A DNA stretch of 64,000 nucleotides from Micractinium sp. NFX-FRZ. Lineage: Eukaryota; Chlorophyta; Trebouxiophyceae; Chlorellales; Chlorellaceae. The position numbers were made by a program, and so were the translations under genes. The DNA lies in contig JAPTJF010000344.1 in assembly GCA_029339195.1 (NCBI GenBank), forward strand, positions 1 through 64,000. The letters are read 5' to 3'. Below are positions 4,763 to 62,063 of this stretch, piece by piece. The notes under the pieces were generated by a model. The model was not told the DNA's origin. It did no database searches and worked only from the letters and a program-made list of their open reading frames with translations. The stretch's first letter is position 1; each line of letters begins with the position of its first letter.

Positions 4763-5568
4763 ATGCCGCGAGTTTGCACAGCGCCTGCCGCCCTGGCGCA
4801 GCGGCAGCAGCCTAGCGCCGCAACATCGGTCGCGCATGGCCTCCAGGCAGCAGTTAACGCAGCATCAGCGGCCCGATGGGCCCAACCAGCCGGCAGCAGG
4901 TGGCGGCAGGCGGCGGCTGCACCTGGGCGCAGCAGTGGCACTGTCGCGCTTGCCGCTGCTTCCAGCAGCGCCGCCATCAGCGTGAACGACGTAGACCTCA
5001 CGTTCACAGGGCGGGGCATCAGCAAGAAGGTGGGGCGCCTCTGAAGAGGGCATGCAGTGCACCAGGACGTGTGCCGGTGTGCGAAGCAGTCATCACGCCA
5101 CTGCACCCGCACCTGCGCCTGCTTGCTGCCCCTCCCTTTGACTGTCCGTGCCTTCCCTTGCTCCCTCCGGGGGCCCTGCAGGTGCTGGAGGCTGCTACCC
5201 TTGAAGTCCCGCGGGGCTCTTTCCACATGCTGCTGGGCGCCAACGGATGCGGCAAGTTGCCTCTGCCGCCGCTGCCGCCGCCTGCTGCTGATCGCCACGG
5301 TGGCATGTGCGCTTTGTGGCCAGTTGCGTGCGTGGCGGCAGCTGAGTCCCTCATATTGCCCCTGCCACACATCTCGCAAGTTCTAGCATGCCTCCTGGTG
5401 TGGTAAGCTGCCCTGCCCTGCCCACTCCACCTCACCAGCACTATCACCCATGACCCTCACCCCCACCCCCGCCTTGCATTGCATTGCATATTGCAGGCAA
5501 GTCCACCCTGCTGCGCGTGCTGGCCGGCCTCTTCCGGCCCGACGCAGGGCAGGTGCACGGTGAGGATA

Positions 5569-5615
<47 letters not shown>

Positions 5616-7714
5616 CCCAGGGAAGGGGCTGGGGAGTGCCTGTGCAGGGGAGGGGCTGGGGATGCCTCTGCCCATATGTTCAGGCTCTGTCCGTTTCTTA
5701 CCTCCACGGGTCGCCCTTTCTTCCCTTCCCCTCCCTCCACTGCAGTGGACGCCCCCTGTGCGTTTGTGTTTCAGAATCCGGACCACCAGGTGGTGATGCC
5801 CACGGTGGCAGCTGACGTGGCGTTTGGGCTGGGCAGGTGGGCAAAGAAGATGTGGGCTGGGCAGCTTGTGGGAGGTGGGGATTGAAGCTGGGAGGTCGGA
5901 TGTAGGCTGGGCAGCTGGGCGAGGGAGGGTTTGGGGCTGGCCTGGGCAGCTGGATGCAGATGTGGCGTTTGGGCTGGTGAGGGGCAGGTGAGGGGGGGCA
6001 GGAGGGGGGCAGGAGGGGGCACGGTGGCAGCAGGGGGATGCACCCCCGGTGCGGGGGGCATCATGGGTGGGAAGCTGCACCTGCCACTCTGCCAGAACCT
6101 CTCTTGCCCCCCTCACAACTCCACGAGTACCAGCAGTCCCCAGAGGGGTGCACCCTGCACCCATTTCCTTCGGTAAGATTCCCCTCTCGCCTCCCCTCTC
6201 ACATCACCCGCAGGTACCAGCTGTCCCCAGCGGACGTGCATGCCGTGGTGCAACACTCGCTAGCGCAGGTGGCTGGGCGGCAGGCTGGGGCATGCAGCAG
6301 GGCTGGGGTGGGCGGGTTGCTGTGTTGCAGCTGCGTATGGCCGGCCCCGTGTGGACACAATCCTGTAGCCTCGAACAAGTGCTTGCTCACATCCTGTGGC
6401 CGCTGCAACACGCCTGCCCAGCACCCCATGTTGACCTCACCCTCCGCTCCTTGTCCACCGCCCCACTCTCTGTGCATGGGTACTTGTTTCCAGAGTGTCT
6501 GAGGCCCCACCTATCCACTGACACTGACCTGGCCACTACTGCTGCAGTTTTCTGCCTCTCTCCCTCTGTCTGCAGGGTGCCCCGCTCTGGATGTGTGCCC
6601 CCTTCTCACCCTCTCTCCCCATCAGCCTCCCACTGTTCGTCCCTGCCCTTCCATAAAGGGATTGCTTCCCGCCACCCCCCCGCAGGTGGGCCTGTCCGAG
6701 TTTGCGGAGCGCCCCACCAGCAGCCTGAGCGGCGGGCAGAAGCAGCGGGTTGCCATCGCCGGCGCGCTGGCAGAGTGCCCCCGGGTGAGGCGCGTGCATT
6801 CCTTCTTTCCTTCCTTTTGCATTGCGATCTGGGGCCCTGGGCGCTCCCAGGTTCCACTTCCCCTGGCGCGTGCGGTGTGGCGTGGGCCGCCTTTGGGTCT
6901 GGTGGCCTCAAGCGCCAACTTCCCCAGAGTGTGAGCCTGCCTCCTCAGCCTGGGAGGGTCCTCAAACTGGCTGTACCTTCTGCCTGATGCACAGCCCTCA
7001 CGGGAGCTCCCGCTAGGCAACTCGCGATGCTCTTGGCTGTGCCGCATCGCCTTGCGTCCCTGCGCCTGCTGTGACACCCTCGTGCACGTCGCAGGTGCTG
7101 TTGCTTGACGAGTTGACCACGTTTCTGGACTACGAGGACCAGGAGAATGTGCTGCAGTGCGTGAGGAGCATCGTGGACCGCAGCAGGCAGGAGCAGGCGC
7201 AGCAGCTGCAGGCAGCGTTGCCGGCAAGTAGCAGCAGCGGCGGCAGCAGCAGCAGCAGCAGTAGCGGCGGCAGTGCGGAGGGTGGGGCGGCGGCGGGTGT
7301 GACGGCACTGTGGGTCACTCATCGGCTGGAGGAGCTGCAGTATGCAGACAGCGTCAGGTGGGGGACTGGGCACCTGGTGTGCAGGCAGAGTGAACCAGTC
7401 AGTCGTAGTGGGTAGTTACGGGCTGGAAGGCGGGTAGTGGAGGGCTTGTGCTGTGGCAGTTGTGCATTGCAGCCAAGTGTGTGCACCGGTTCTTGGTACT
7501 GGCAGGTGGGGAAGGGAGTGGGCCAGGGGCACTCGGCTGGTGCATCTGGAAGAGCACTCCTTTGTGGAGGGACAGCGTCACACCCCGACTTCACCCGTTT
7601 CCTCTCCGCTCACCCGCACCTCCCTGCAGCTACATGGACGGCGGGCGCATCGCGTTCAGCGGTACACCCCAGGAGATGAGGCGGTACATGCGGCGGCTGG
7701 GGGCGGTTCTCTGA
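4763..7714 (+). CDS. ABCI10: Plastid ABC transporter ATP-binding protein (ABCI10/CbiO-like)
   Basis: Eight exons give 330 aa: 4763-5029, 5182-5251, 5497-5559, 5746-5836, 6214-6268, 6686-6784, 7095-7357 and 7630-7714. All phases close. Residues 1-75 are Ala/Gln/Ser-rich with Arg, like a chloroplast transit peptide. The ATPase core is complete: Walker A GANGCGKST (108-116), Q-loop FQNPDHQ, signature LSGGQKQR, Walker B VLLLDE with D-loop TFLD, and H-loop WVTH. This layout is that of single-domain ECF/CbiO-type ATPases; in plants the match is ABC transporter I family member 10, which would energise an inner-envelope importer with ABCI11/ABCI12-type partners (not seen here). Intron 2 has a GC donor (GCAAGT) and splits the Walker A codons. 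An unusual insert of about 40 residues, Ser/Gly-rich, sits between the D-loop and the H-loop. Intron 3 starts with a TGCC microsatellite. Confidence 0.93.
5573..5619. repeat. (TGCC)n microsatellite in ABCI10 intron 3
   Basis: About eleven uninterrupted 4-bp units lie directly after the donor of exon 3 in the ABC ATPase gene. Such tracts can vary in length between strains. Confidence 0.9.
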
Positions 7715-8381: not shown

Positions 8382-11300
8382 TCACGACAGCACCCGGCTG
8401 ATGCGGCGGAACACGCCCCGCACCCCCTTGCCGCTCTTCTGCCCGCTGCCGCCGCCAGCAGGGGAGACGGCCGGCACGCGAGTTGCCTCTACCGGCTTGC
8501 GAGGCGCAGAGAGGGAGCGGCCCAAAGCGGCGCCGCCAAATGCGGCTGCCTTGCCGGCGGCGCCGGCCACCATGCCGGCGGCGGCGTCCGCCACAGAGGA
8601 AGCCTCAGCCAGGATGCTCTTGGTGCTGCCCTGCACAGGTGGGTGGCCGGGTGACCAATACAACAGTTTCAGCAGGCGTGCACGGGAGGGTGGCCAAACA
8701 CGAGAGGCCGGCCCCGCCAGGACGCTCTTGGTGCTGCCCTGCTCTGCCCCTGGGCTGCTGCTGCGAAGGCATGAAGGGGCAGCAGGCAAGCCGCCACCCT
8801 TCAGCGGTACAGGCTGTACCTTGCAGCATCCGTACCTTGAAGTCGTAGATGGAGTCGAACACGTCGTCCAGCTTCTTCAGAGCTTCCGGCAGCGGTACCG
8901 CGCTCAGCATGCCGCCGCTGGCCTCGCTGGCCAGCTCCCACTTGAGCAGAGCGGGCAGCGCCTGCGTGGCGGGGTCGGAATACAAAGTGTAAGGGATGAA
9001 GGATGTGAAATATAGGATGAGGGAGGCAGGAGCAGCGCCCGAATAAGCTGAGCTGGCATGGCAGCAGCTGGGGGTGGAGGGTGGGGGGTGGGGAGAGGAG
9101 GCAGTTGCCGCAGGCTTGGTGTACACTGATGTGGGGCCCCTACCTTTGGTCCTAGCCAGCCTTTTCACTCAGCCCGATCACACGCCCACCGCCTGCCCCC
9201 GTTTCTTTCTATCCCACAACCCACCGCCTGCCCTGCCCTGCCCCCTTCCCTGCAGCTGCCCCGCTGCCCACCTCCTCGCAGCCAAAGTCGATCTTGCAGC
9301 CAAACTGGTGGGACAGCAGGCCCTCGCACGCCTCGTCCAGCTGGTCGGCTGCAGGGTGGATACAGGAGCAACATGGTAAAGGGCAGGGAAGGGAAGTCGA
9401 AAGTGCAGAGGGGAGGCACGCACTGAAGCCCTCCCACGTCTCTTCCAGCTGGTCGGCTGCAGTGAGTGGAGCTGGCTGCAGTAAGTGGAGCGGAACGGGT
9501 AACGAGAGAAGGGGCAGGATGAGGAGAGGAGAAGCAGCGCCCAGCAAGTGCTTGCAGGCCTGGCACTTGACACCTGCCTGCATCTTTTGGCTGCTGACCA
9601 GAACACATTCCGCCCTGTTCTTGCTCAGACCCCTGCCCGCGGCCTCTGCAGGCAGTGCTGCCGGTGCAACTGCCCCTCCTGCCCCCCGGCCCCTTCTGCC
9701 CCGCTTCTCATTCGCTTCTGCTTCACCTGCGGCAGGCGTCACGACCGGCCACGTGCCCCTGCCCACCTGTGACCCCCCCCCCCCCCTGCCCACCGCCGAC
9801 ATTGCTGCTGCCCTGCCCCCTGCCCTCCCTGCCTCCGGCCCTCCCTGCCCCGCCCTTCCCCTCCCTCTCTGCCCCTTCTATTCCCTTGCAACTGCCTCGC
9901 CTGCCTGCAGCGTCCAACTGTTGAGCAGCACACCTTCCGCCTTGCCCCCGCCCCGCCCCGCCCTGCCCCTGCTCGCATTACACAGCCCCACCCCGCCCCG
10001 CCCCGCCCCGCCCCGCCCCGCCAGTCTCACCCGTCAGCGGCTTCTGGCTGTTGAGCAGCACGCAGTAGCAGACAAAGATCTCACGCATGCGCTGCCTGCA
10101 GGGGGTGGGGGCAGCCAAGGCAGTGGCGGCAGGCGGAGCAGGGCTATGAGCAGAGGCAGAGCCAGAGCGGGCAAAAGGAACCAGCGGAATCTCCCGAGGT
10201 CCGCGCGCATGAGCTGCCTGTGCGGGGCGGGTGGGGTGGGGGAGCAAGGGGCAGGCAGCACGGTGGGAAGTGCTCAGCACCCAACCCACCCCCCGACCAC
10301 GCCCACCCCGCCATGCATGGTCAATTCACCTGCACACGCTGTCCACCAGGCTGTTGAGCACGGTGGCGCCGCTGCCCACGGTGCGCTCGTACAGCATCTG
10401 CCAGGGCAGGGAGAGTAGGCATGGGGGGATTCAAGCAAATACAGACTTGAATTGGTGACTGATGAGGTGGCGCCGCTGCCCGCGGTGCGCGCACACAGCA
10501 TCTGCAGGGTGCAGCGGAACTGTGGGAGATGCTGCAGAGTTGTGTTGTTTGGTGAGCGATACACATACTGCCGCTGCCCACGCATGCACTCGTGGGAGCC
10601 ACTTGAACTTTAAAAAAAACGGCGCACATATCAGGGCACACGCCCACCTTGCCCATGGTGTGCTCGATCTGCATCTTTTGGGCCTGGGCGCTGGCATACA
10701 CCTGATGGGGCGCAGGGGGGCATGTGCAGAACGTAAGGGGGGGAAAGGCGGGGGCAGGAGGCATCTGCATGATGACGTGGTAGTGAGGTGCGCGTGTTGG
10801 CCGGCCGTCACGCCCAGGAGGGCGGCGGACCCCTCCGCCTGCAATGGAAGCGGCTGCTTGGCAGCGTTGCGAACCCAAAGTTTGTAGGCTGCACGAACAT
10901 AACCCCTAAACAGCCCTAAACCCTAAAACCTAAACCCCAAAACCCTAATGATTACCCAGCACCGGCCGTCCGGGCACACAGCCAGGCAACCTGTAGGCCC
11001 GCCTGACCATCTTAGCGTCCCAGCACGCACAGATACCGTGAATACCCCGCTCCCGACCAGACCAGAACAACAAGGGGGACTGCACAAGGACACACAGCAC
11101 AGCCACAGCAAGGGGACGCTGAAACCGGGCACACAAGAAGCAGGGGAAGTGTTCGAGTCATACCTGCGCGGCGCGGCCGCCCAGCAGTGAGATGCCGGTG
11201 TAGGCTGCCGTCAGGTCCAGCATCTTGTCGTCCTTGCCCTTCTTCAGGGCTGCAGGGAAGCAGACAAAGGGGCACGACACGTGAAGAGGGGGAGAAAGGG

Positions 11301-14300
11301 AACGAGGCAACGGTCAGTATCAGGCAGACGTGTTCAGCATCCTGCCAGGGTCTTGCCGACCGCCAGCGGCTGCAGGCGGCGCAAAAGGAGGCGAGCGGAC
11401 ACAAGGCGCTGCACTTGGGAGCAGCTGCACGGCAACAGCTGCCCTACAGGCGGCCAGGGAGGGCAGAGCACAAGCAGGGCAGCACAGGAAGGTGTGCGCC
11501 AGGGCTGAGTGCGAGTGGGCGCAGCTGCACCCCGCTAGCAGGCCCTTGCCAGGCACTCCCACTGCCCTGCCCGCTGCCCCCTCTCACCCGCCACCAGCCC
11601 CAAGAACCATCCCATTTCTGCCATCTCCATCCCCCCTCTCTGCCAGCTCACCCGTCACCAGTCCCACCAGCCCGCCGATGAGCGTCACCGCCATCTCCAC
11701 AAACACCTTGGGGGGCACAAACACCTGCAGAGGGGAACCGGAGGGGTCCCTTCTTAGCAGCACATACACAACGGGTTGGGTTATGATTAGGCAAGTGCTG
11801 CTGGGTTCAGTGACATCTCCACAAACACCTTGGGGGGCACAAAACACCTGCAGAGGGGTGGTTGTGCAGCCACCCAGGAACGCATGCACAAAGGATTGGG
11901 TTCTTGTCATGAATGCGGGTGCCGAGGTTGCTACCATTTCACCGAACACCTGCGGCGGCACATGCAACACCACATGGGTGGGCGGACGCTTATTACACAC
12001 ACGGCAGCCCCCGGCGCCTGTCGTTTGCTCCCAAAGGCATTACCAGTCACGGTTCGGCCCCATGCCTCGTGCACAAGAGGGAGAGCAAAATAAGGAAGAG
12101 TAGTCTATTTCGAGTGCATTGCCCCACCTTTTTCTCGGGCATGGTCATTCCAGGTTGGCACCCTAACATACGAGCAACATAAGAGAAAGCAAAGAAGAGG
12201 CACGCACCCACACCGCCCTCCCACCTTCTTCTCGGGCATGACCATCTCCAGGTCGGCCATGGGGATCCCCCGGAACTGCTTGATCTCGATGTTGCGCTGC
12301 AGCCAAGAAGAGAAAGAAAGACAAATGCACGGTATGCCCACGTGGGGAGCTGCTTGATCCAGACGTTGCGCTGCCGGGGTGCAGGGGAAGCAGGAAAGCA
12401 AGAAGAGGCGGTGGGCATGAGCACAGCATCGCACAGCATGGCACAGCACAGCACAACACAGCACACGGCACAGCACACGGCACAGCACAGCACAACACAG
12501 CACACGGCACAGCACACGGCACAGCACACCTCGCCACGGCACGACGCAGCATAGCACAGCACAGCATGCACAGCGCATGACCCAGGTCACACCTTCATGA
12601 ACTGCGGGTCCGCCTCATTGATGATGTCCACCTCGCTGGCTGGGGCCTGCAGAGGCTTAAATCCAGTTATGTTTGTCTGCTTTGACTTGTTTTTTCCGGT
12701 TTCCGAGTTGCTGCAGGCATGCCGTACAGCAGCACACACCGCACTGCGCAATCACCGTGTCAACCTTGTCGGGCACCGCCGGAGGAGAGAGCACCGCCAC
12801 GCCCCTGAAGCACGGCGTCGTGCTCTCTCGGCAGCAACCTTCCGTGAAAACAGGACGCAAGCACATCGCCTCAAGACACCTCCGCCCTACACAATCGTTA
12901 CCCTGCCCTACACATGTACCGCAGTGTCCCGCTCGACCGCTCCCCTCTCTCACCGGCTTGTCGGGCACCGCCGCACGGTAGAGCACCACCACGTCCTTGA
13001 AGCAAGCCTCCTGCAGCTTCACCTTCTTCACCAGCTGCTTAATGACGGACTTGCCATCAGGGAACACCCTGCAGCAGGTTGTGGGGTGGGTGGGGGCAAG
13101 GTGGATGGGTGTGGGTGGGTGGGTGTAGATGAGGCCCTGCGGCCCGGATGCGACCACCTGCCCATGCTGCCCATGCTGTGCGAAATGTGCACTGCTGTCC
13201 CTTGTTCTGCCCAGTACTGCCCGGCGCGCTGCACCATGATGCACTGTGAGGCTACGCTTCTGGCAACAAAGTATTGGGCTGGCTGTGGTCAAATCCCAAA
13301 GTAAGCGCTGTGCTGACCTGGCAAAGGTGCGGCGCTCGATGGAGGTGGAGGCGGCGTGCCGCTTCTGCTTCGCGGCCGCCGCCAGCGCGGCCTACACCAG
13401 GAGAGTGGGCCACATGCCGTCTGTCAACGTGCAAAGGACATGGGTATGCAATATTATACAGACTTGCACACAAACCACCCTAAATACAAGAGCACAACTG
13501 AGCGCACTCACCACTGCATCCGGGTCCACGTCTGCCGTGGCAGCCAGCCCCTTGGGGGCGTCTGGCACAAAACGCTTGATTTTGAGCTGCAATGAATTGA
13601 ACACCAACAGAACACACACCGGGCAGCGTTTGCAGAGGGTGAATGCATGTGCTGGGCAGGGCAGGGTGATCCGGAGAGGCAGCATTCCCGACTGCTGCGG
13701 CCCGGCTGCGCTGGCGCCAGTGCCTAGGCAAGAGTGCGCCTGCCCAGGCCAGCGGCACCGTGTGTCAGCGGCACGCGTGCCAGCTCAGCGGTGTGCCAGC
13801 TCAGCACTCACCGCCTTCATCAGCGCCACAAACAGGCGGTACAGCGGCTGCAGAATCCACATGCTGCAATGCGTTTTCAAGAAAACAGGGGAGGGGAGAG
13901 GCAGGGAGTGAGGCTGGCGGAGTGGGCAGTGAACGCAGCGGCACGGCTCCAGTGGAGCGGGCGCTGCCATTGGTCCTGAAACACCCGATGTCACCCCGCA
14001 TTGAGCACACATACTCTCCCTTCATTTTTCTGAGCTGTGCCTGTTCCCTGCTTTCTTACCGCCTTCCCTCCCCCTCCCTCTGCCAGCTCAGCGCACCTGA
14101 TGAGCAGGTTGACCTTCAGCATGAAATAAGAGCCCTGCATGCTGGCCTGCAGCGGGGCAGCAAGCAGGCAGCAAGAGAGCGGTGTGAGCCAAGAGAAGAA
14201 CGGCGGCTGGTGTCCTTCGGCTTTGATTGATCCAGCCTCTCAACCGATGAGCACATAAAGCATCTGGACCAGGGCACAGCCCTCACCACCTCCACTTGCT

Positions 14301-42759: not shown

Positions 42760-42951
42760 CTGCAGGCGGAGGGTGCAGTGGGAGAGGCAGGCGGACAGGC
42801 AGCCGGGGGAGTTGTTTGCAGCGGGCACTGCCCCAAGCCTCACAGTGACGTCCTGCCCTGGCACGCAGGTGGCCTGTGCTGCCTTTCGGAAAATTTCTAG
42901 AAGAGAGGCTGCGCTGCCTGCAACTGTCCGGGGCACCTGCCGCAGGCACAC

Positions 42952-43007
42952 AGAGTGCCTCTCGCCTACATGCCGGACACCAACGCCGCCTCGCATGCAG
43001 AGCTCGC
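42952..43007. repeat. 56-bp perfect direct repeat, right copy
   Basis: Identical to 39331-39386. It is followed immediately by sequence that aligns with intron 1 of the intact hemoglobin gene, so it marks the right border of the insert. Confidence 0.92.
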
Positions 43008-43498
43008 CCAAGCGAACAGCGGCGCGTTGAAGCCGCCCGCCCGTCGGCTGCTGCACCAACCTTACACCCGCCTCCCGCACCGCCCCTCCCGCCGCCGCTG
43101 CGACCACTGACAATTGAGGATCTGGCGAACCCTCATCCCCTCTGCAGACACTTTGGAGCTAGCAGTGGACCTGTTCTACTGCCGGTGAGGGGCACGCGGG
43201 TTGGCAGTGCTTGGTGAAGGGCATCAGGGATCAGTCAAAACGGGCATGGGGCCGTTGGGGCGAGCACCCTGGCAGTCAGGGCGGGCCCTGCTGAGCGGCA
43301 GGCTTGCCCGGCGACAGGTCTCTGCACGGACGGCTTCGGCGGCGGCTGTGCATCTCCACTAACGCTGCCTGATATTTGTTGGGTGCTCACCCTTGGGCAT
43401 GCAGTGTGATGGCGGATGCTGAGCTGGAGCCGTTCTTCCGCCACATAGACATGAGTCGCCAGCGTCACAAGCTGGTGGGTGGGTGCAGGGTGGGTGGG

Positions 43499-44527
43499 CG
43501 GTTAGGTGGGGTGCTGCCCGGTGGGAGTGAGGCAGGCACGGGCGGCGGTGGGCCACAATGTGTGCCAGCGTGCCTGGAGCCAAGGCGGGTGGTTGGTTTG
43601 TGGCTATGTGAAGCAGGCAGTGGTTGGCGGTCGTCCTCAAAACCAAGGGGGTCACTACCGCTGCGAGTGGATGGCTGCAGGCACTGGGCAGCGCCTGCAG
43701 TTGCTCGGCGGGCAGGGGCGGGCAGCGGGGGCATGGGCGGGCGCGCATGCAAGGCCCGGCTGGGGCTCCCGCCCGCACGCCGCGCCCCTGCTGAAGCATG
43801 TCAGTATCACGCGTCTGCTCTCGTGATTTAGTACTGCCCGTCTGCAGGGGAAGCCTGCGGTGGAGAGTGAGGCGCTGTGGGCTGTGGCGACGCTCTCCTC
43901 AACCCCTCGTGAGCGGGAATCTCATCCACGCCTGTTTCATTCCTTTAGGCTGCGCCTGCAGGGCAAGACGCTGGAGGAGATTGAGGCCCTTTGGGCTCCT
44001 GCGCCAGCAGGGGGCAGCGACGGTGGCGGCAGCGGCAAGTGGGAGGACTGAGGACAGTGGGAAATATAGCAGAGGGGGAGCGCACACGGGGAGTTGGAGG
44101 CCGGTGGGGCGGCCAGCGTGGGTTGTTCCCCAGCACAGGCAGCTGTTGTTGTATGCTGCAAAGCTGCAGTGTTGACACATGGTCTGGCACCTGGCTGGTG
44201 ATCGGTGATTCAGGGGTTTCAAAACGGGCCCCCGCGTTGTAAGCAAGCTTCCACTCCGCGGCGGCGCGACATCAAATGGGTGGTGCTGGCACCAGCAGCT
44301 GTCGAGATGCCACGAAGCTGCCAGCACGTTTTGCACCTCTTTGTGCATTGCGATTATAGTGCCTTGCATGCCTGCTGGTGCTCACCAGCATCTCTCCGAG
44401 GTTGCCTTTGCGGGACGTGCCCCTCCAAGGATGGAGCCCGGCGTTGCTGGCGGACCGACCAACTCCTCTCCCTCTCTGGACGACCGCATTAGAGCGCACC
44501 ACCGCAATGAGCGGGCCACGGACGAGG
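43499..44527. repeat. Tandem segmental duplication, right unit (5' part)
   Basis: Copy of 38165-39258: transporter last intron and exon, its 3' flank, promoter and hemoglobin exon 1. The copied transporter exon has a small deletion in the Gly/Ala-rich tail. The unit goes on through 45260, matching about 43008-43498 of the left unit. Confidence 0.92.
44052..44430. promoter_or_regulatory. Promoter region of the truncated hemoglobin gene
   Basis: Duplicate of 38754-39161. It provides the 3' flank of the chimeric gene and the promoter of the intact hemoglobin gene. No known motif was recognised. Confidence 0.45.
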
Positions 44528-48118: not shown

Positions 48119-51100
48119 ATGATGAACTCGCTGGCGACGGCTGCAGCGGCGCTGCCGCAGGAGGGCACCGCCGCCGCCGCAATTGCTGACGCGGCGGCGG
48201 TAGGGCGCGCCCTGCTGCAGCAAAACACTAGCATGCGGGCGGCAGGAGGCTCTCTCGATCTCTCCGTTGGCGGCGACCTGGATGTGCAGCTGACCCAGCT
48301 ATGTGAGTTGCTCAGTCAACTGAGGGCAGGGTCAGGGGGGTGCAAGTGCAGCCGCCTGTGCACAGTACCGGACTAACGAGGCGAGGGTGTGCCCGCGCCT
48401 CTTCACCCTGCTGATCAGCCGAGCGCCGCCTCTTCCTGACCAGGTCGAATCGAGAAATTATGCCCTATCCTTGATCTCCTTGATCAGTCTCCCTTGCAAC
48501 TGGCCCATCGACTCTGCTGCCGCGCCTCCACTGACACTGGCGTCACGTGCGCCCACAGCGGCACGCACCCTCGTTCCGACCCTCCTGCCTGCCCCGCCCT
48601 GCCCCCGCCTGCTCCCCTGATGGTGCAGGGGTGCTAAACTGCGCATATCTCGTGTTTTTCATGCAATGCGGCTTTGCCCTGCTGGAGGCGGGCACCATCC
48701 GGCACAAGAACACCAAGAACATCCTGCTCAAAAACGGTGGGTGCTGCGGCGGCCCCACCCGGGGTTGCTGGTGCAGCGTCGGAAACAGGCGGTGCGTGTG
48801 CTGCGTGTGGCCTTCTCATGTGCCGCCTACTGCATGTGCCTGCCTCGTCTACATGGCGGACCTACTGGGTCGGCCTGCCCCACCACTCCCGCCACCACCC
48901 GAGCCCGCCGCCGGTGCCTGCCCCCGCTCTTCTCCCCCTTCCTCCCTGCTAGGGCACCTCCCTTGCCTTACCGTTCCATCGCCATGCCTCTTTCCAGTGC
49001 CCTTCATCCCTGCCCCTGCCCCTGGCAGCTGTGCAATGAATGTGACGTGTGTGGTGCCACGTGTGGGGGCAGCGGCGGCATAATTTCGCCCTGCGACCCC
49101 CCAAACGCCACTCCTTTGCTTCCTGGCTCCGCTCCCAAAGCATTCATCAGCGCCTGTGTGGGCGCGCTACCATGGGGAGTTGCACCCATGCTGCAGCCGA
49201 CGCCCCCACCCCGCACGCGTGCCTGCCCGCTGCCCCCTGCTGCCCTGCCTGCTGTGCAGTGATAGATGCATGCGTGGGCGCGCTGGCCTGGTGGGCGGTG
49301 GGCCACGCCTTTGCCGTGGGCAAGTGCGGGGACAGCGGCTTCATTGGTGAGGATGGGGTTGGAAAGGTGTGAAGTGAAAAGACTAGGGAAGATTGAAGAC
49401 AAGCAATGTAGTGACCCAATGTGTGCTGTTGGTTGATGCGGGGGCAGCGGCTTGATGGGTGAGGCAGGGAGATGTGCGAGGTGACGGGCAGAATGAGCGA
49501 CATAATAAACCTGATGTGTGATGTATTGTGGGGCACGTGCGGGGACCGCACGTGTTGCTCCCTGTTGTAGCTCCCCTGAAGCTTGCCCCCCGGGCGGCAC
49601 CCGCGGCGCCCTCTTGCTGCCTCCCCCCGCACGGTCGACCGTCCAACGCGCTGTAGACGCCTCGGCTGAGCCTTTAACCTTTAATAAACCCACCGCCCGG
49701 CCCTGACCCATGAACTCCGCTCTCCTGCCCCACCCCCCCGTGCAGGATCCTGGGACTTTTTCTCTTCCGAGGCTTCTGCCCAGACGGGGCCCTACTGGGC
49801 CCTCTGGCTCTTTGGCTGGGCCTTCTCCGCCACGTCAGCCACCGTGGTCAGCGGGGCCATGGCGGAGCGCGCCCGCTTCAGGTGGGTAGCACAATAGTGC
49901 TGGGGAGGGCTGCACTGTCCATCTCCGCCCTGCCGCCCGCCCTCTCAACCACATCCCCCCCTATCTCCGGTGCCCCCCGACAGTGCCTACCTGCTCTGCA
50001 CCCTGCCCATCCCCGCCTTGCATCCTTTTCCCGCTTACATGAGCGTTTGTTGTGACACTGGTTGTTTGTTTGTTGTGCCTCCCCACCCCCGCAGGGCCTA
50101 CCTGCTCTACACCCTGTTCATCTCCGCCTTCATCTACCCCGTGGTGGCGCACTGGGTGTGGAGCGAGAGCGGGTGGCTCTCCGCCCGGCGCAGGCGAGCG
50201 GGAGGGTGGGCCCAGTGGCCGGCAATGGGCTGGGACAGGGGAGGCTGATTGGTTGTCTGAACCCCGCTGGGAAGCAAGGGCGCCTGGTGCTGCTGCGAGC
50301 ACAGGCTGCCAGCCCCCCTTGAGAGCAACAGCAGAGCGTCTGGTGGGGCGGGCGGGACGGGGGCGTTTGGTGGCGCGGCGGGGAGTGGCGCGCGGCATGT
50401 GGCACCAGCATGTGGCCGCCCGCCAGCCGCACTGCGCGCAAGCGCTGCCGCTTGTGCCGCGCCCCTGCCCCGCTGCGTGTATGGCAACCCGTTGCACCTC
50501 CTCAACACACGTGTGCTCCTGATGTGTCGCCTCCTGCGTTGCAGAGCCGACTGCAGTGACCCCTCTGCCGGCTACGACCCCCTGTTCACCGGCACCATGG
50601 GGGTGATGGACTTTGCTGGGAGCGGGGTGGTGCACATGGTGGGTGGGGCGCCCGCCCGCCTGCTGCTGTAGGGGGTGGGGGGCGGCTGGGGAGTGAAGCA
50701 CGGGGTGCAGAGGAGTGGGGTGGGGTGGCGCACATGGTGGGTGGGGCACCCACCTGTCTGTTGTAAGGGGGAGGAAGGTGGAAGGAGCGGGGTGGTGCAC
50801 ATGGTGGGGCATCAAACACCCGCCTGCTGCTGTAGAGGGGGCAGGGGGGTGAGGGGGAGTGACTGTTGAAGAGAGGAGCAGGGGTGCAGAGGAGAGCGGG
50901 GGCGGGAGCCTCCAGTGGGGTTGGCCAGGGAGGCTGGCTTGCTTGCAACCCCTCCTGCACCAGCCATGCTCTGTGGGTCCGTGTACTCGATTGATGGGTT
51001 GCTCGCTGGTTTGCTCGCTGGGCCTGTCAAGCATGCCCCCCTCACCAGCCACCCCCCCTTCAACCGCCCCCTTCCCCCGGGCCGCGGCTGCATCTGGCGC

Positions 51101-54100
51101 AGGTCGGCGGCGGCGCTGCCCTCATGGGTGCAATCCTGCTGGGCCCCCGCCTGGGGCGCTTCAACCAGGTGGGAGCTGGGGGTTGGATTTGGGGTGAGGT
51201 GAACAGGGCGAGGGGCGACCCTATCCCTTTCCCGTGAACGGCTGTGTGTTTGTGAAGCTTGGGTTTGCAAGCAGGACGAGGGGCGACCCCAACCCGGCCA
51301 CGGGATTGGTGTTTGTGCGGTAAGTGGGGGCACACCATTTTAACCAGGCGGGAGCTTGGGGTTGGGTGCAGGGTTGGGGTGGCCGCACTCCTGTCTGGTC
51401 AATGGTGTGGGGGGCAGGGTGCGGGTAGCACTTGTTCATCAGATGAGCACGCAGTACTGGTGTCGGGTGCATGTCCCCCTGACCCCATCAGGGTGAGCAG
51501 GAGGCCAGGCCGGCCACGTGTGCAGTTTGCCAGCGCCTCGTCCCCACTGCCCCGCAGTAAGATAACAATAACGTAATGCAACACTAAACAACGCAACACT
51601 CCCCCCTGCCTGGCAGGACGGCCACGTGGTTGAGTTTGCCAACGCATCCCCCGCCAACATGGCGCTGGGCGTCTTCATTCTCTGGCTGGGCTGGTGAGTC
51701 ACGGCGTGCGCTGTGCATGCTGTGGTTAGCGTGCGATGTGCATGCTGTGGGCACCACGTGCTGTGCATGCTGTGGGTGTCTTCATCCTCTGGCTGGCATG
51801 GCGAGGATACACTGCATACGGGCAAGGGGCCGGAGGCGCGACCCGCGCCACGTTTGCAATGCTACACCCCAGCTGTCTGTCACATTGCCACAATGCTACA
51901 CCGCATCTCCCACAACACCCCTGCTAAGCACGTCTTCAGCAGCGGCTCCACAGTCAACGCCACACCACGGGTGCAATGCTACACCCCAGCTGCCTTTGTG
52001 ACTCCACAATGCTACACCCCCCCCCCCCTGCCGCAGGTACGGCTTCAACAGCGGCTCCACCCTCTGCTTCCTCAACTGCATGCCAGTGGCCGCTCAGATC
52101 GCCGTCAACACAACGCTGGCAACAGGTGGGCTGCACTGCCTGCCAAACTCACACCTGTCTGTCAGTTGTTGTGATGGTGGACGGGAAGGTGGACTGCACT
52201 GCCGGTCCAACTTGTGTCCGTCGTTGCTGTGACCACCCCGTTGTCCCCCTCGCCTCCCCCTGCACAAAGAGCGGTGTCACCTGCCTTTTTCGAGCAGCAT
52301 GCATCCTCGCAAACCACCCCTGTCCCCACTCGCGCTACACAAGCAAGTGCGGGCTGGCTCTGGCGGCGCCACCTGCGTCTGCCTGGCCGTGAACAGCAGC
52401 AACCTCCCCACCTCTTCTTCCCACCGCAACCACCCCTCTATGACACATCCACACCTGCAGGCTCCGGCGGCATCACCTGCCTCTTCCTGGCCGTGTTCAA
52501 CGGCAACCCGGGGGACATCGGCCCGCTGCTCAACGGCATCCTGGCGGGGGCGGTCAGCATCACCGCCGGGTGAGGTCGAGGAGAGAAGAAAGCGCGCTTG
52601 GGCGAGGGGCAAGGAGGCTGGGGTGAGGTGGCATCGCTGGCGGGCGTGGGCAGCATTGCTGCCAGGTGAGGCTTCTGCAGACAAGGCCGGGAAGCCTTTC
52701 ACCCTAGTACCGCTCCCCCACCCTCTGCCCCCTCATCTTGCTTTGTAACCCACCTCCCCCCTTGTTGGGCTGTGCCTCCCCCCTGCCCCCCCCCGCGACG
52801 GTGCAGCTGCGCAATGGTGCAGTCTTATGGCGCGGTCATCATCGGGTCCATTGGCGCCGGGATCTACATGGCAGCGGCACGCCTGCTGCAAAAGTGAGTG
52901 CGCTGCGTGTGGTAGTCAGCGCAAGGGGATAGGTGCGCACATATTCATCTCTACATCTTGTACATCTTTGTACATCTGCAACATGTTGTCTGTGCAGGCT
53001 GCACATTGACGACCCAGTGGATGCAGCGCCGGTGCACTTCTTCTGCGGCGCCTGGGGCCTGCTGGCCGTTGGGCTGTTTGCCACAGAGGTGGGTGGCGTG
53101 TATTTGTGTGTGAATGCATCGAAGCAGAATAAACGCGGGTGCTGTGTGGGCTGGGTGCGTGGCCTGGGTGCGGCCTGCCTGTCGTAGGCCTGCACACCAG
53201 ACAGGCGGACACGAGAAAACAGTAACAAGGCAGCATGTGCTCCACTACCACGCCTGGTTGTTGCCTTCACACCCACAGGCTTCCCCCACGTGTCGCACGT
53301 TCTGTGTCCTGCGCCCCTGCCTGCTGCAGACCTCCACAGAGATGGCTTACAAGTATGCCGCAGACTGGGGCGTGCTGTACGGCGGCAACGGCAAGCAGCT
53401 GGGCATGCAGGCGCGTCCCTTGCCTGCTTCTGCTTTTCGGGGGTTACGGTCTGCATTCCGCAAACAACGTGCGATGCAGACCCCTGGAACAGTGGGGGGC
53501 TGCCGGGGTTGCAAGCGGGAAAGGAGAGTGGGGGATGCACAGCGGGGTGCTTGCATCAAGAGGGGGGCCGGTTGCGTGAAAGCAGAGCGGCCAGCCAACC
53601 TCAGCCTGCGATTTCCTTGGGCAGCCTCAACAAGCCCCCTATGCTCCAACACGACGTACAGTACCCTCTTTCTTGCCTGACCGTGCCCGCCCTGCTGCCC
53701 GCCCCCCGCAGGTGCTGGGCATCGTGTGCATTGCCGCCTGGAGCTGCTCCCTCTCCTTCCTCATGTTCTTCGTCCTCAAAAAGGTGCGCTGCCCCAGGCT
53801 CCTTTTTCTCATCTATTTGCGTTCACATAGACACAGAGTGGTTTTTGGATTGGGTTTTGGACGTGTCCTGTGGAACGTGTCCCATTGCCCCCTCCTCCTT
53901 AGACTCAGCTTCCATCCCCCTCCACTAAATGACCTGCACAGCGCCTGGTCGCGAGCCAACACATGCGCCCAGTCCCACTACCCCGCCGTTATGAACTGAC
54001 ATGACATCGTCCACCATCCAACGCTGTCCACCATGCGACGTTGTCCCCCCTCCTGGTCTGCAGCTCAACTGGCTGCGGGTGGACTCAGAGTCGGAGCAGC

Positions 54101-54371
54101 AGGGCCTCGACATGTCCCAGGTGCGCCCCTTTTGCCCATTAATGTCGTGCTGCCGTGTACCAGTGTGATGTGTTGTGCTGTCAGAGCAGGGGCTCGACTT
54201 GTCCCAGGTGCGCCTTGTTGAGACCTTTCCCCACTTTGTCAACATCCCCAGCTAGCCGCAGAGCCCCCCAACCGCTGCACCCATTTGACCCTGCCTCACT
54301 GCTGCCCGCAGGGCATCGGCACGGGCGCCCGCTGCACATGCTTCCCCTGCCTTCCCTGCTGCCGAGAGTGA
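48119..54371 (+). CDS. AMT1: AMT1-type ammonium transporter, 16 exons
   Basis: Exons are 48119-48302, 48629-48736, 49260-49346, 49746-49881, 50095-50193 (or 50205), 50545-50638, 51103-51168, 51617-51693, 52037-52125, 52461-52569, 52807-52893, 52998-53088, 53330-53410, 53712-53783, 54064-54120 and 54312-54371. They total 498 aa (502 with the GT donor of exon 5). The family is plain: [21 protein letters not shown] (helix 1), [19 protein letters not shown], the AMT signature [34 protein letters not shown], and [17 protein letters not shown] with the conserved pore His. It moves NH4+/NH3 across the plasma or another membrane as a trimer. The start ATG (48119) follows an extracellular N-terminus of about 60 residues, long for the family. 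The C-terminus ends in a Cys cluster ([11 protein letters not shown]), a candidate palmitoylation site. The exon 13 donor, and possibly that of exon 5, is GC. Its neighbour is the truncated hemoglobin. Confidence 0.95.
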
Positions 54372-56546: not shown

Positions 56547-59500
56547 TCACGTCTCCTCCTCCTCCGAAGTCGAGAAGGCACTCAGCTCGGGCGCCACGTC
56601 AGCGCCTGCCGCCGTGGCGGTGTCCGAGGACACCGCCCTCCTTTGCACGGCGGTGGTGTAGGAGGGAGCCAGCAGGCCGGTGACGGGCAGGCTCAGCTGG
56701 CGTGCCGACAGGTTGAAGTCCAAGAACTCGGCCAGGGCCTTCCTGTTGGGCCGCCACTTCTGGATGATTGCGAGGCGGGCAAAGCCTGCGCGGGGCGCCG
56801 AGGACGGGGGCACGGGGCGACAGGTCAGCCCAGGGGCGCACCGTGGGTTGCGATGCCAGCGTGGTTGAAGCAAGCACGGCACCACCCACCGGAGATACAA
56901 CGGCACCTGCACACCGAAGCCGCACGCTCGAAACCAGCGGGCCCCGCTGGCATCCTCTCCTTGGCCTGACAGGTGGCACGGCATGCAGCCGGCTTATTCT
57001 ATTACAAACGTCAGTCTCGGCCCGCCGCCCGCCCGGCCCACTCACCTGCATTAATGACAACTGTGCCATGCCCGCCATTGGTGCCCCGCACAAAGTCGAT
57101 GGCGATGCCCGACTTGAGCTTGGTGGGGCCGGTGACGGGGCGGTTGTTGGCGACGGCAGACAGGCGGTTGGCGGGGGGCAGCGGGGAGGTGTGGTCGGCC
57201 AGCGTTACGCGGATGACGTCAATGCCGTTTCTGAACTCAAAGGCGCGCATCACTGTCGTGCCCTTGATGCGCCCAGCCGCAAACTGCAGGCATGTGGGAG
57301 GGGGGGAGGAGAGGATGAAGGAGCAAAACGGAACAGGGGTTTGTGGGTGTGCAGGGGAGATGTGGGTGGTGATCGGCCAGCACAACATGGGCCAGGCATG
57401 TGTTGTGTGTTGCGCCGAAATGCGCGCTTTGAGGAAGCAGCCCGGGTGCGGCCAGTGGAAAAGGGGCACGTCAAGCAGGAGGGCAGCTGAACACCAGCTT
57501 GCATACCAACGGAACTGCTGCGCCTAGACCTGCAAGCCCACCCAGTTGTGGCTGCCCACGCTGCTGTGCCCGCCCACGCTCCTCCCTGCCCTGTTAACTA
57601 CCCTCCCTACTCGCCCCTGTCAACTACCCTCCCTACTCCCTACTCAAGCCCACCCTGCTGTCCCTGCCCTCCCACTCACCCTGGCCTGCCAATACCCCTC
57701 CCTGCTCGCCCCGGCCTGCAAGCCCACCCTGCTGTGCCTGCCCGCCGTGCTGTGCCTGCTGTGCCCACTCACCCTGGTCTGCAGGAGGAAGCCTTGGCGG
57801 GGCGCATCCAGCAGCTTGTACCAGTTGTTTGGCTCGCCGTGGTAAGTGAATTTGATGCCATCAAAGCCCTGCACGTGCCACAAACCCAGCCAGTCACAAC
57901 AGGGCACTCGGCATGTGCTGGGAACAGGTGCAGGCTGCTCGGCAGGTTTCCCAAACAAAACGAAGCTGGGACTGCGGCGGGGCTGGCCCTCACACGTGAC
58001 ATCAGGTTGTGACCGCAAATTGACGCAGGTGTTTGTGCCACACCGCGGACACTCTTCCTGGCGCTAACCGGAGGCGGCTCTCCCCCAGCCTCTTCATCCC
58101 AAAAAAAAGCTGCATCCCCGGTCACACACCACCATGCTGGGCTCACCCGGAAGTGTGGGTCTCCCCAGCCCGAGGCGTTCTTGCTGGGGGGAGGGGAGCT
58201 GGGGGCGGTGGGGCGCAGCACCCTGGGGGGCCGCGGGCTGGGTGGCGGCGGGCTGCACAGCAGGCAGAGCAGGCAGAGCAGGGGGCGCAGGGGGATCAGA
58301 AGAGGAGGAGGTGGGCGTCAGCGCAGTGGCAAGCTGCGGGGGGTAGCTGCTGGTGCTGGAACTGCGACACAGCAGCCTCCACCCCTGCTGCCGCTGCTGC
58401 TGCTGCCGCAAAGCAGCAGGCAGGCTGCAACCCTCCCACTCGGCTTACGCAGTTGTAACGGGAGTCTTCGGCCTGGGCGGCGGCGGGGACGGCGTGGCAA
58501 CCTGCGATACCAGAAGGTGTGTGTGTGTGGGGGTGAGCGGCGGGGGGAGGGGAGGAGGCACCTGCCGGGGCGGACGGGCCGGTGCCGGCCGGGTGTGTGG
58601 TGTCAAGGGTGAGAGCGCCAGCGGGGGGGAGGACTGCGCCCGCCATTATCTCCAGCTGGGAGGCTGCTAACGGTGCTGTAGGAGCACACACACACGGTGT
58701 TGCACACAAACAAAGAAGAGGTGCTTCCAGAGCCACCGGCTGCCCCGCCAGCTCACCACGTCCAGCGAGGCGCCGGCGCGCTTGGACACGCCGCGGTCGT
58801 CCTTGTACAGGCAGGTGAAGTAGCGGTACGTGACCGTCTGGCCGGTGAACAGGGCGTTGTCCACCTCCATCTCATACGTGGCTGCAGGGCAGGGTGGGGA
58901 AGCAAGGGTGTGGTGGGTGTACGGCACATGTGCGCATTTGAATGGAGGAATGTGCGTGTATGAATGGAGGCCAGTGCATGCGCTTCATCTCGTATGTGGC
59001 TGCAGGGCAGGGGCCCAGGGAGCCGACGGGTTATAACGTGCATGCATTCAAAAAAGGGTGGGGAAGCAAGGGTGTGGTGGAGCGCGGCACATGCGCGCAT
59101 TGCAGCAGAGGCGCAGAAACAAGGAATGTGGTTTCCTACAGCGTGCGTGCACTGCAACAGGGGCACGGGCACAAAAGGTGTTGGGGGTGCAGCGGCTGGA
59201 GCGCCCTCGCAGCGTGCCGGCGGCTGGCCGACTGATGTGGCACACACACACCAATGCCAACTATAACACGCACGCGCACACACACACACACCAATGCCAA
59301 CTATAACACACACACACACACACACTGCATGCACTCACCGACGTATTGGTTGCCGGTCTTCTTCACGCTCACTGCAAGGCGTCGGCAGCGAGGGGCGGGG
59401 CGGGGTGAGGCCAACAGGGCGGGAGCCAGCAGGTGCGGCAAGCCAGCTGTCGGGGGGAGACGGTATGCAGCAGGCAGGTGGCACTTGGCACTGTGTCTAC

Positions 59501-62063
59501 GGCACAGAGTGGTGAAGCGTATGTGCGTGTGTGTGTGTGTGTGTATGATGTGTTGCACACACGGCAGTACCGCAGAGTGGGAGTAGTGAAACAATCGGCC
59601 TCCACCCCACCATCTCCCACCCCTGAGTGCAGCAACGAGCGGTGGCGCCCCCTGGGCGGCCGTCGCGTGCGCCCCCCACACAGAACACGCCCCGGGTGCC
59701 TTCGCCATGCAGGGCACTGCGCGCGCCCTGTGGGGCCCGCTCAAACAGCCTTCCCTTCAAACAGGCCCTGTGCATGCCTCATGCCGCACCCTCCCACGCA
59801 CCCGGCTGGAGGGTCAATACGCGCGCGTTGAAGGCGGTGCTGCTGCAGGGGCCAGAGCCGGCGGGGGCCCCGCAGGTGATGAGCTGGGCGGGCCAGTTTT
59901 TGGGATCCAGCAGGGCATAGTCCCCTTCCACGATGCAGGTGGCGGTGGCCTGGGAGAGGGGGAGGCAGCGAGGGAGGGAGGGAGGGAGGGTGTGAGAATG
60001 GGAAAAAGGTTGGGCCATGCGCACGGCGCAGCATGGCACAGCAAACACAGCACGGCGTGCACACCGCAGCACAGCGCGCATGACACGTCGAAACCAGGGA
60101 ACTAAGTGGTGAGGGTGGCGGTGGCCAGGCTGCCAAGCTGAGAATACGGGACGGTGTGCGCCAGCTGGCCTGCGAGCACAGCATGCCCAGCATGTTGAGT
60201 GGCGCACAGCACAGCGTGCGCAGCGTGCGCAGCGCACCCACCTTGACGGTGTTGTTGCCGGGCGCGTAGATCAGCCCAAACTTCCCCCCCTTGTTGGGCG
60301 AGTCTATGGTTGCGGTGGAGGTGCCGAAAAAGGTGGCGGCGGGCGGGGAGGGCGGCGGGGTGGGCGGCGGTGGCGGCGGCGACGGCGGCGGGGAGCGGGG
60401 GAGCGGCGCATCGAGCGTGAAGCTAGCAGCAGACCGCTCCTGAGCCTTGGTGCCGTCTCCACCACACAGGTAGAAGCACTTCAGATAGTAATAGGTTGTG
60501 GCGCCCTGCACGCGAGGAGGCACGAGGCAGATTCCCAAGGGCGCAATCCAGTGAGAAAGAGGGCCGGTCGAGGCGCGGGCGGCGGCGGCGGCGCGCTGCG
60601 GGGGCGGGGCTGATGCAAGTGCAGGAGCCTGGGCCTCAGCTTGCTTTCCACCCACTTTCCAGGCGTTGACAATGCGCATGCTGAAGGCCGCGCCACAGGC
60701 ACAACCCACCCTCCAACCACCCAATTTCTCCTGTTCCCAGGCCACAGCTTCCACCCACCTTCCAGGCGTTGACGATGCGCGTGCTGAAGGCCGCGGTGTA
60801 CGCGTTGGGCACACCCCTGGTGGAGGAAGTGAAGTTGGCCTTGCCTGCGCCAGGGACCGGGGAAGAAAGCAGCACAGAGTGCTCGTCAGTCATGGTTGAC
60901 CCACCGGTTGGAGCAAAGGCACCCCCTGGTGTGAGATGCACATGTGTGTGTGCCCTTCCCCCATGGGCCAAGTGTGTGGAGGTGCCAGGAAAGAGGCGGC
61001 CCGGGGTGCGCACGCAGTGCCTCAGGGCTTGCTGAGGCCGGGGCGCGGCGCAGGCAGCAGCAAGGCGAGGTGGCCGCCCCTCCTTCCACGCATCAAATGC
61101 CTGGTGCACAGCAGGCTGCTGCCAAGCCTCCTATCACCAAGCCAGGCCATGAAAAATCACGTGCCAAAGCATGACATCACGCCATACCACGCTGTCACGC
61201 CACCCTGGCATGTCGGCACGCCACATCATCGCCCACACGCAGCTCAGTGCAGCAGTGTGCAGCAAAAGCCACGCAGAGTGCTGCCCCTTGTGCCCGGCAT
61301 CGACGCACTGCCTGACGGTGCACTGCACGGCATCATGCCACGTCAGCATGCCAGGTCAGCACGCCCACCTGAGGGGACGAGCGTGCAGGAGCCAGAGAAG
61401 GCGGACCCAGGGGTGCACACAGAGCGCGCTTCTGCCAGGTCTGGGATGTTGCTGTCCCGGCAGGGCGTGGTGCCGCACAGGGTCAGCTGCGCGCGCCAAC
61501 GGGATGGCTCAAGAGACGCGCCCTCCCCGGTCATCGCGCACGTCGCTTGCAGCTGCAAGGCAGGACAGGCAAAGCAGGCAAGTATGTAGGGGTTGAGACC
61601 ACGGCACTGTCCAGACTCTTTCACAGGTCATCTAACAGGCTTCCAGATAGGGTTGTTGGCTGTACAGGACGTAAACCCTGCCGGCGCCCTGCACAGGGCG
61701 CGGCTGCCCCCAATGCTGGCGGCGCAGCACCCAGCTGCCGCTCACGTTGAAAGTGTTGTCGGCATCGGCACGGTACTTCCCTGCGGGCAGGTTCCGACAC
61801 AACACGGCTGTTAGTGCACGGCTGTTAGAGGAGCAGGGGCGCGGATGCGTGAGCGGGCGCAAGGCGCGGCGGCGCGGCGGCAGCGGCGCATGCCCCAATC
61901 TCTCACCGTCGCCACTCTTCGCAGTGAACAGCCTCTGCGTGCCCAGGCCGAAGATCACCAGCTGCGAGCCCTCATAGCACAGCTGGGCGTGAATGCCCGG
62001 CAGGAGGAGGAGCAGGAGGGCCGCCAGCCCCGCCAGGCGGGTCGTCCGCCCGATTGCCCGCAT
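56547..62063 (-). CDS. Secreted modular extracellular protein with VWD-like domain, 13 exons
   Basis: Exons, 5' to 3': 62063-61907, 61780-61677 (end uncertain), 61552-61369, 60844-60759, 60505-60242, 59949-59802, 59371-59339, 58881-58757, 58501-58449, 58252-58147, 57868-57773, 57283-57046 and 56785-56547, giving 610 aa in phase. Residues 1-26 are a strong signal peptide (MRAIGRTTRLAGLAALLLLL). Two related Cys-containing modules follow: ATCAMTGEGASLEPSRW...LTLCG (from about 90) and ATCIVEGDYALLDPKNW...LITCG (from about 267), with a (SPPPPPP) linker between them. Residues of about 384-415 are another Pro-rich hinge. The C-terminal 190 residues start with WGDPHFRGFDGIKFTYHGE, the hallmark of von Willebrand factor D-type domains, followed by NNWYKLL. 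The likely location is the cell wall or matrix. The binding partner is unknown. Confidence 0.82.
59222..59328. repeat. (CA)n-rich tract with duplicated block
   Basis: Two CA-repeat runs, each preceded by the same block (CACCAATGCCAACTATAACA), in the intron between exons 7 and 8 of the VWD-like gene. Confidence 0.9.
59523..59547. repeat. (TG)n microsatellite
   Basis: A dinucleotide run of about 10 units in the intron between exons 6 and 7 of the VWD-like gene. Confidence 0.85.

Follow-up and report, generated by a model that had tools for sequence, protein, structure and literature searches.

Many introns of the green alga Micractinium sp. NFX-FRZ contain copies of the edges of their own neighboring exons. 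We analyzed a 64-kb stretch of contig JAPTJF010000344.1 (C344 of a 66 Mb genome; hereafter the window) together with 200 kb from 20 further contigs, 10 kb each (positions 100001-110000 of contigs C1-C20), for a total of 264 kb. Exon-edge copies in their own introns are real, occur beyond chance and are not restricted to the window. With a probability of about 0.6, we read them as the products of short tandem duplications of ~105 bp (~36 bp of exon and ~70 bp of intron) across splice junctions, which are filtered by survival and whose intron part decays faster than the rest. A first-pass annotation of the window had proposed a continuing process of short junction duplications that leaves one copy coding and turns the other into intron, with copies ranging from strongly decayed to nearly identical. 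This is borne out by exon-part identities from 68% to 100%, by complete units at 97.5% and 100% identity, and by homologous intron flanks in many young pairs. Short tandem duplication alone is too simple an account, as the breakpoints are phased to the junctions and the intron parts decay faster than in a neutral simulation.

Exon-edge copies exceed chance expectation

Genes were predicted with a self-written, self-training gene finder that uses no RNA data and whose initial codon preferences and splice motifs were assumed and afterwards re-estimated from the data. It converged on 59 genes with 465 introns, 461 of them at least 70 nt long, with predicted splice motifs AG/GTGAG at donors and TGCAG/G at acceptors (the slash marks the splice position) and median lengths of 250 nt for introns and 98 nt for exons. 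The window holds 12 gene models and 107 introns, and the other 20 contigs hold 354 introns. We scored every exon edge against the intron next to it, using the introns of other genes (swapped) and reverse-complemented introns as controls.

At a score of at least 16, 45/461 donors and 49/461 acceptors match their own intron, compared to 0.3 and 0.3 in the swapped-intron control. At a score of at least 14, the counts are 59 donors versus 0.7 and 65 acceptors versus 5. The inverted control, run over the 461 introns, returned 0 donors and 2 acceptors, which is the same-orientation pattern that tandem duplication would be expected to leave and which agrees with the annotation's claim that copies share the orientation of their source. 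Overall, 83/461 introns carry a copy at the stricter score and 110/461 at the looser one, or about one in four to six. Self-alignment with controls, the check that the annotation had suggested, thus gives exon-edge matches in introns far above swapped and inverted expectation.

In the window, the stricter score finds 20 donors and 17 acceptors in 31/107 introns (inverted control, 0 and 0), while the other 20 contigs have 25 donors and 32 acceptors in 52/354 introns, making the window richer in copies (p=0.0014). At least one copy is present in 25/59 genes, spread over the window and 14/20 of the other stretches. The annotation had counted at least eight genes with copies, and we find copies in 8/12 window gene models, three of which (6, 8 and 9) have segmental duplications in common. 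At least two of the window matches fall within low-complexity sequence that is rich in G or C (5951-5982 and 9946-9976).

The same signal emerges from an ungapped self-alignment of the 264 kb in which direct and inverted pairs were scored per offset. Direct pairs scoring at least 24 reach 663 per Mb per 100 offsets at offsets of 101-120, falling to 6.1 at 501-750 bp, 0 at 751-1000 bp and 3.0 at 1001-2000 bp. From 41 bp upward, direct pairs peak near 100-120 bp and not at the shortest distances, and the peak is present outside the window as well (550 in the other contigs versus 1016 in the window). Inverted pairs scoring at least 24 were absent at offsets of 13-2000, with a few appearing at a score of at least 20.

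Copied segments are phased to the splice junctions

The distance from copy to exon edge is 70-130 bp in 78/127 exon/intron pairs, with a mode of 100-110, and offsets in the list of window copies run from 45 to 192 bp. Among the best cases, the copied segment measures 30-50 bp in 47/64. Typically it spans about -37 to +6 relative to the donor, or about -6 to +36 relative to the acceptor. Donor copies end between 0 and +11 of the donor in 21/32 cases and commonly start near -37, while acceptor copies end 28-43 nt into the exon in 24/32 cases and start between -9 and 0 in 17/32. The homologous dinucleotide is retained in about half of the copies (GT in 24/52 donor copies, AG in 26/48 acceptor copies). 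As the annotation had described, a junction may have more than one copy, up to two or three, and these are unequally spaced (104 and 111 bp; 98, 93 and 105 bp; 88 and 121 bp).

Short units are rare across junctions: units below 70 bp make up 11/127 junction-spanning pairs versus 51/103 intron-intron pairs (Fisher p=2.6e-12). We compared these dimensions with simulated random breakpoints, in simulations that covered donors only, used assumed rates and gauged the exon part in a slightly different way than was done for the real data. An intron part shorter than 40 nt was observed in 4/64 cases versus 159/311 simulated detectable donor-spanning units, and an exon part of at least 55 nt in 3/64 versus 118/309 (38%), which rules out uniform random breakpoints.

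Many young copies extend into the intron

If copies derive from tandem units, they should agree in the intron beside the splice site but not in the exon past the copied part. For pairs with an exon-part identity of at least 0.93, anchored gapped extension on the intron side reaches 21.5 versus 3.4 in the control for donors (n=7) and 17.4 versus 3.7 for acceptors (n=8). On the outer exon side of these pairs, donors show no excess (2.3 versus 2.6) and acceptors a small one (5.2 versus 2.2). At identities of 0.85-0.93, the intron-side values are 4.6 versus 2.8 for donors (n=17) and 13.1 versus 3.4 for acceptors (n=10). Some units are complete: one in the window (45906-46025, offset 115) has 97.5% identity, and units of 106 and 107 bp, the latter lying inside an intron, are 100% identical in a second stretch, L020. 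Homology throughout the unit is detectable for many young pairs and undetectable for many others.

Exon edges of the ammonium transporter fit coding sequence better than their copies

To judge which copy codes, we turned to the ammonium transporter gene of the window, for which edge residues are found in homologs at 64/69 positions and copy residues at 51/69. One copy contains one stop codon. Among the eight edges, there was one tie and one edge, at 54098, where the copy fits better (7 versus 6 of 7). Overall, the exon edges of this gene fit a coding role and the copies fit decay, and we infer that the edge rather than the copy is also what is spliced in genes that lack such a homolog comparison.

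The annotation had further suggested that the duplications supply alternative exons and shift splice sites, which our data do not support. Offsets have no clear preference for multiples of three (donors 21/15/16, acceptors 17/14/17), and differing codons are more often nonsynonymous than synonymous (138 versus 71 for donors, 121 versus 64 for acceptors). A second splice dinucleotide at the outer edge is no more frequent than background, with AG in 9/32 donor copies (background 0.35) and GT in 7/32 acceptor copies (background 0.37), so most copies are not complete exons. Together with the homologs' preference for the edge, these results leave alternative or mutually exclusive exons unsupported as a general explanation. 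There are a few candidate duplications of whole short exons with both splice sites, at 6177-6254 of stretch L012 (offset 214) and in predicted exons 13 and 14 of L020, and these could possibly be real alternative exons.

A proposed model of junction-spanning duplication and survival

We propose that short head-to-tail duplications would be frequent in this genome, with units mostly of about 70-130 bp where they span a junction. Duplication across a donor would give the order exon edge, intron, exon-edge copy, intron copy, and acceptors would show the mirrored order. The old splice site, attached to the whole exon, would remain in use, while the copy would become intron and decay. Survivors would be those in which the unit includes enough intron (usually 40-100 nt) to provide a complete splice region for the working site and to keep the decoy far off, and little exon (about 20-50 nt), hence a poorly competing decoy. 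At acceptors, the working site would have to retain its own branch site and pyrimidine tract, and at both ends the decoy must presumably not carry exon enough to compete. The intronic half would lose similarity faster because both of its copies drift and do so, by simulation, 2-3 times as fast as the exon-derived copy. What would be left is an isolated exon edge with its splice motif, lying about 105 bp into the intron. The survival filter and the chemistry of duplication are the parts of this model that we infer, the former from the phasing of breakpoints to the junction. Introns in the examples inspected look strongly asymmetric, G-rich past the donor and C-rich ahead of the acceptor, and this composition might favor slippage or the stalling of forks at either end of the intron.

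Several observations weigh against this model. An initial unanchored test detected significant intron-side similarity in only 28/93 pairs (17/49 at an identity of at least 0.85) and found exon-side similarity, too, in 17/93 pairs, which is above chance. In-register similarity is lost by about 8 nt from the donor, including in the 13 donor copies that are at least 0.90 identical. An equal-rate simulation expects intron-side extension of 41.8 for donors and 39.9 for acceptors at identities of at least 0.93, versus the 21.5 and 17.4 seen, and at 0.85-0.93 it expects 26-27 (donors 26.4), versus 4.6 for donors and 13.1 for acceptors. Fitting the simulation requires an intron part that decays 2-3 times faster than the exon-derived copy, while a single paralog comparison gives decay about 1.5 times faster. 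Spacing within arrays is variable. Intergenic DNA is poor in local direct pairs, with 10 in 53 kb versus 103 intron-intron pairs in 137 kb; per kb, local direct repeats are ~4 times rarer between genes than in introns, though both should be nearly neutral. Lastly, mismatches between copy and edge are in excess at third codon positions (positions 1/2/3: donors 60/82/110, acceptors 78/61/85; p=0.002 pooled), which may reflect synonymous change in the exon, although weak constraint on the copy may also contribute. The simulations reject neutral tandem duplication in its plain form, in which rates are equal and breakpoints fall at random. There are two ways to read this: intron ends have a rapid turnover, or a part of the copies never formed complete units.

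The latter would be the case under junction-directed copying, in which a discrete segment of ~40-45 bp (37 exon plus 6 intron, or 6 intron plus 36 exon) is inserted 60-75 bp into the intron, for example through template switching at intron ends or an RNA intermediate, with the junction itself setting the boundaries. Such copying predicts the same phasing that we attribute to survival, and because the simulations reject uniform breakpoints with equal-rate neutral decay, they leave room for it. It also accounts for the narrow range of segment lengths (30-50 bp in 47/64) with edges near -37/+6 and -6/+36, the sharp loss of register at +8, the failure to detect intron-side homology in many pairs of 0.85-0.97 identity, the frequent spacer length of about 60-80 bp and the variable spacing in arrays. 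However, many young pairs have homologous intron parts, the youngest are complete tandem units, there is no inverted excess, and fast decay of slippage-prone intron ends could mimic a sharp edge. We know of no machinery that would perform such copying and regard it as doubtful. We are slightly more skeptical of its most specific form, in which the splice junction directs co-transcriptional or RNA-templated writing of ~42 nt (37 exon plus 6 intron, mirrored at acceptors) ~65 nt into the intron. If this were true, exon edges would be actively propagated into introns genome-wide, and intron growth would be coupled to splicing.

Repair of staggered double-strand breaks with filler DNA would leave two direct repeats around an unrelated insert, and so accounts for the order of repeat, unrelated spacer and repeat; the repeats in Daphnia neointrons have been attributed to it (PMC4202315). 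Those repeats are 4-17 bp long, while the copies described here are mostly 30-50 bp, and break repair predicts neither junction phasing nor homologous spacers in young pairs, making it improbable as the general source. Mobile elements are a further possible origin of the spacers. The 93 spacers are hardly more alike than shuffled sequence (mean score of 9.89 versus 9.42 over 1988 same-type pairs), and only 2 spacer pairs from different genes score at least 25, versus 1 when shuffled, which speaks against a mobile-element family or introner-like elements. A role in splicing, as decoy or recursive sites or as alternative exons, could explain why GT or AG is kept in many copies, why copies may decay more slowly than the intron and why third positions show excess mismatches. 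Yet the dinucleotide is lost in about half of the copies, offsets are not multiples of three and outer-edge dinucleotides are at background, and we consider retention for such a role very unlikely. We give almost no credence to chance, low complexity or an artefact of the gene models or assembly. While introns do appear G-rich at their start and C-rich at their end and the gene models are unsupervised, the swapped-intron, inverted and distance controls rule out chance and low complexity, the effect recurs in 14/20 other stretches, and the exon edges of one gene were checked against homologs. The copies are mostly diverged and are therefore not collapsed duplicates.

Introns with copies are longer

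The annotation had proposed that the copies lengthen introns, and carriers are indeed longer: the 70 introns with a copy at an exon-only score of at least 16 have a median of 362.5 nt versus 237 nt (p=1e-11), a difference of about 125 nt, or about one unit. The share of introns with a copy rises from 2-4% below 200 nt to 26-37% above 300 nt. As longer introns offer more room for copies, this link is a correlation. One example is a 1101-nt intron in L020 (647-1747), in a gene that may be importin-like; it contains many ~93-107 bp units, some 100% identical, the first of which copy the donor edge of the preceding exon. This intron looks to be actively expanding from exon-edge copies.

One copy can be placed in time relative to a larger duplication. 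The paralogous blocks 38165-38773 and 43501-44071 have one acceptor copy in common. Between the blocks, the intron differs at 60/444 sites, the copy at 3/33 and the exon at 5/90, while the copy differs from its edge at 9/36. The shared copy is therefore older than the block duplication and evolves roughly like intron.

The units straddle predicted existing junctions, and the copies sit inside longer introns, the introns examined being a subset. Birth of a new intron, in which the offset equals the intron length, seemed apparent at 54098 (offset 87); this failed once the homolog-like last exon was placed at about 54312, which puts the copy inside a longer intron.

Relation to known systems

The origin of intron sequence and the way introns gain length are largely open questions. 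Substrates that Reed and Maniatis reportedly used in 1986 set a duplicated 3' splice site with a truncated exon stretch in competition with an intact site. Those are laboratory constructs, and the copies described here are their natural, genome-wide equivalent. Both PMC12480690 and PMC5389562 cite Reed and Maniatis 1986, and in the available excerpts of the latter, beta-globin substrates with duplicated 3' splice sites have a proximal copy with 14, 55 or 205 nt of exon. The amount of exon on the proximal copy is reported there to influence which site is used, but these substrates were spliced very inefficiently when the authors of the paper tested them.

The other published systems are likewise summarized from excerpts. 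Tandem genomic duplication is a recognized route to new introns (PMC3443670, retelling Rogers 1989 and Hellsten et al. 2011). As in our data, it involves a small head-to-tail duplication with duplicated splice signals and duplicated exon sequence that is spliced out (PMC3443670, PMC4974935). In that model, an exonic AGGT segment is duplicated and an intron is born, whereas here the unit straddles an existing junction and lengthens an intron that was already there, with the copy usually in that intron's interior. The annotation knew of no named system for the pattern as a general feature of an algal genome. This needs qualifying, since intron evolution already has a named mechanism in tandem genomic duplication, although the sources consulted treat it as intron birth and not as repeated lengthening. 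A precedent for junction-spanning duplication comes from potato RdRp, where intron-exon structure was duplicated in tandem; the segment has a branch site, a pyrimidine tract, a 3' splice site and part of an exon, like our acceptor-type units (PMC4974935). That is a single case that created a new intron, while we find dozens of cases and show no new intron.

In Daphnia neointrons, exon-edge and internal intron sequences recur as short direct repeats, and repeated rounds lengthen introns, much as here, but the repeats belong to recently gained introns, and the longer copies in our data are phased to junctions (PMC4202315). Rogers and Bendich 2025 describe direct repeats of 4-30 bp (mean 11.4) at intron borders, which they read as insertion scars (PMC11782384). 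These also lie around exon-intron borders; however, they pair the two ends of an intron, while here one exon edge pairs with the interior of the same intron. Within the incomplete coverage of our literature search, we found no report of frequent, junction-phased exon-edge copies in adjacent introns genome-wide. Judging from these excerpts, the components (tandem genomic duplication and splice-site competition) were already known, and what is apparently new is the frequency and the phasing. At the frequency seen here, about one intron in four to six bears a growth scar at its own junction, and the surviving copies amount to a naturally made collection of duplicated splice sites. That units usually keep at least about 40-60 nt of intron, and decoys under about 50 nt of exon, suggests directly testable rules on the splice-site duplications that a cell tolerates.

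Catalog of copies and gene models in the window

Exon-edge copies in the window. Scores are match scores from the junction test; offset is the distance from copy to exon edge.
Feature	Copy	Strand	Exon edge	Offset (bp)	Score	Identity	Gene or remark
Donor-edge copy	12765-12801	-	12957-12993	192	27	0.86	
Donor-edge copy	12123-12148	-	12220-12245	97	20	0.88	
Acceptor-edge copy	12346-12374	-	12272-12300	74	21		
Acceptor-edge copy	11807-11843	-	11685-11721	122	31	0.92	
Acceptor-edge copy	10466-10505	-	10362-10401	104	32		
Acceptor-edge copy	8703-8742	-	8595-8634	108	28		
Doubtful donor-edge candidate	9946-9976	-	9991-10021	45	23		CCCCG-rich tandem repeat 9946-10022
Doubtful donor-edge candidate	5951-5982	+	5806-5837	145	20		G-rich; ABC transporter (PF00005)
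Acceptor-edge copy	18366-18411	+	18449-18494	83	34		
Donor-edge copy	19465-19501	+	19345-19381	120	33	0.95	
Donor-edge copy	31951-31980	+	31864-31893	87	26		Sugar transporter (PF00083)
Acceptor-edge copy	32414-32447	+	32530-32563	116	20		Sugar transporter
Acceptor-edge copy	33631-33672	+	33813-33854	182	26		Sugar transporter
Acceptor-edge copy	34134-34173	+	34240-34279	106	22		Sugar transporter
Donor-edge copy	34377-34421	+	34305-34349	72	27		Sugar transporter
Donor-edge copy	34977-35010	+	34890-34923	87	30	0.94	Sugar transporter
Donor-edge copy	36051-36085	+	35930-35964	121	25		Sugar transporter
Acceptor-edge copy	43839-43883	+	43953-43997	114			Common to paralogous block 38165-38773
Donor-edge copy	45210-45244	+	45050-45084	160	27		Globin (PF01152)
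Young acceptor-edge copy	45964-46015	+	46079-46130	115			Within 120-bp match, 97.5%, intron part included
Donor-edge copy	49424-49464	+	49312-49352	112			Ammonium transporter
Acceptor-edge copy	49975-50019	+	50086-50130	111			Ammonium transporter
Donor-edge copy	50784-50808	+	50619-50643	165			Ammonium transporter; another copy at offset 98
Donor-edge copy	51773-51805	+	51666-51698	107			Ammonium transporter
Acceptor-edge copy	52353-52391	+	52457-52495	104			Ammonium transporter
Donor-edge copy	52637-52671	+	52541-52575	96			Ammonium transporter
Donor-edge copy	54185-54214	+	54098-54127	87			Ammonium transporter
Acceptor-edge copy	58983-59011	-	58865-58893	118	23		
Donor-edge copy	60648-60692	-	60751-60795	103	39	0.93	

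Eight predicted proteins were submitted to Pfam. Four contain nearly whole domains (Sugar_tr at 307 bits, ABC_tran, DUF3754 and globin), and the other 4/8 returned no family; the families of the genes in the table are PF00005, PF00083 and PF01152. Diverged segmental duplications (78-93% identity) pair 38165-39279 with 43501-44551, 43029-43481 with 44639-45084, 28572-29153 with 30302-30904, and 39317-39386 with 42936-43007. Two of these duplications reach into the sugar transporter (its 3' end) and a globin gene (its 5' part), which makes gene model 8 a probable chimera of such pieces, and gene models 6 and 8 both probably join unlike pieces. Gene model 10 has a wrong end and lacks a piece of one exon. 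Five algal homologs can be aligned along the ammonium transporter model, apart from the C-terminus and a 13-residue block that the model lacks; the five best among the matches listed are Micractinium and Chlorella proteins at 68-72% identity. This model stops early at one exon end (53330-53414), where the homologs continue with YGGSGKQLGMQ and a matching open frame is present, and its last exon, as placed at about 54312, is homolog-like.

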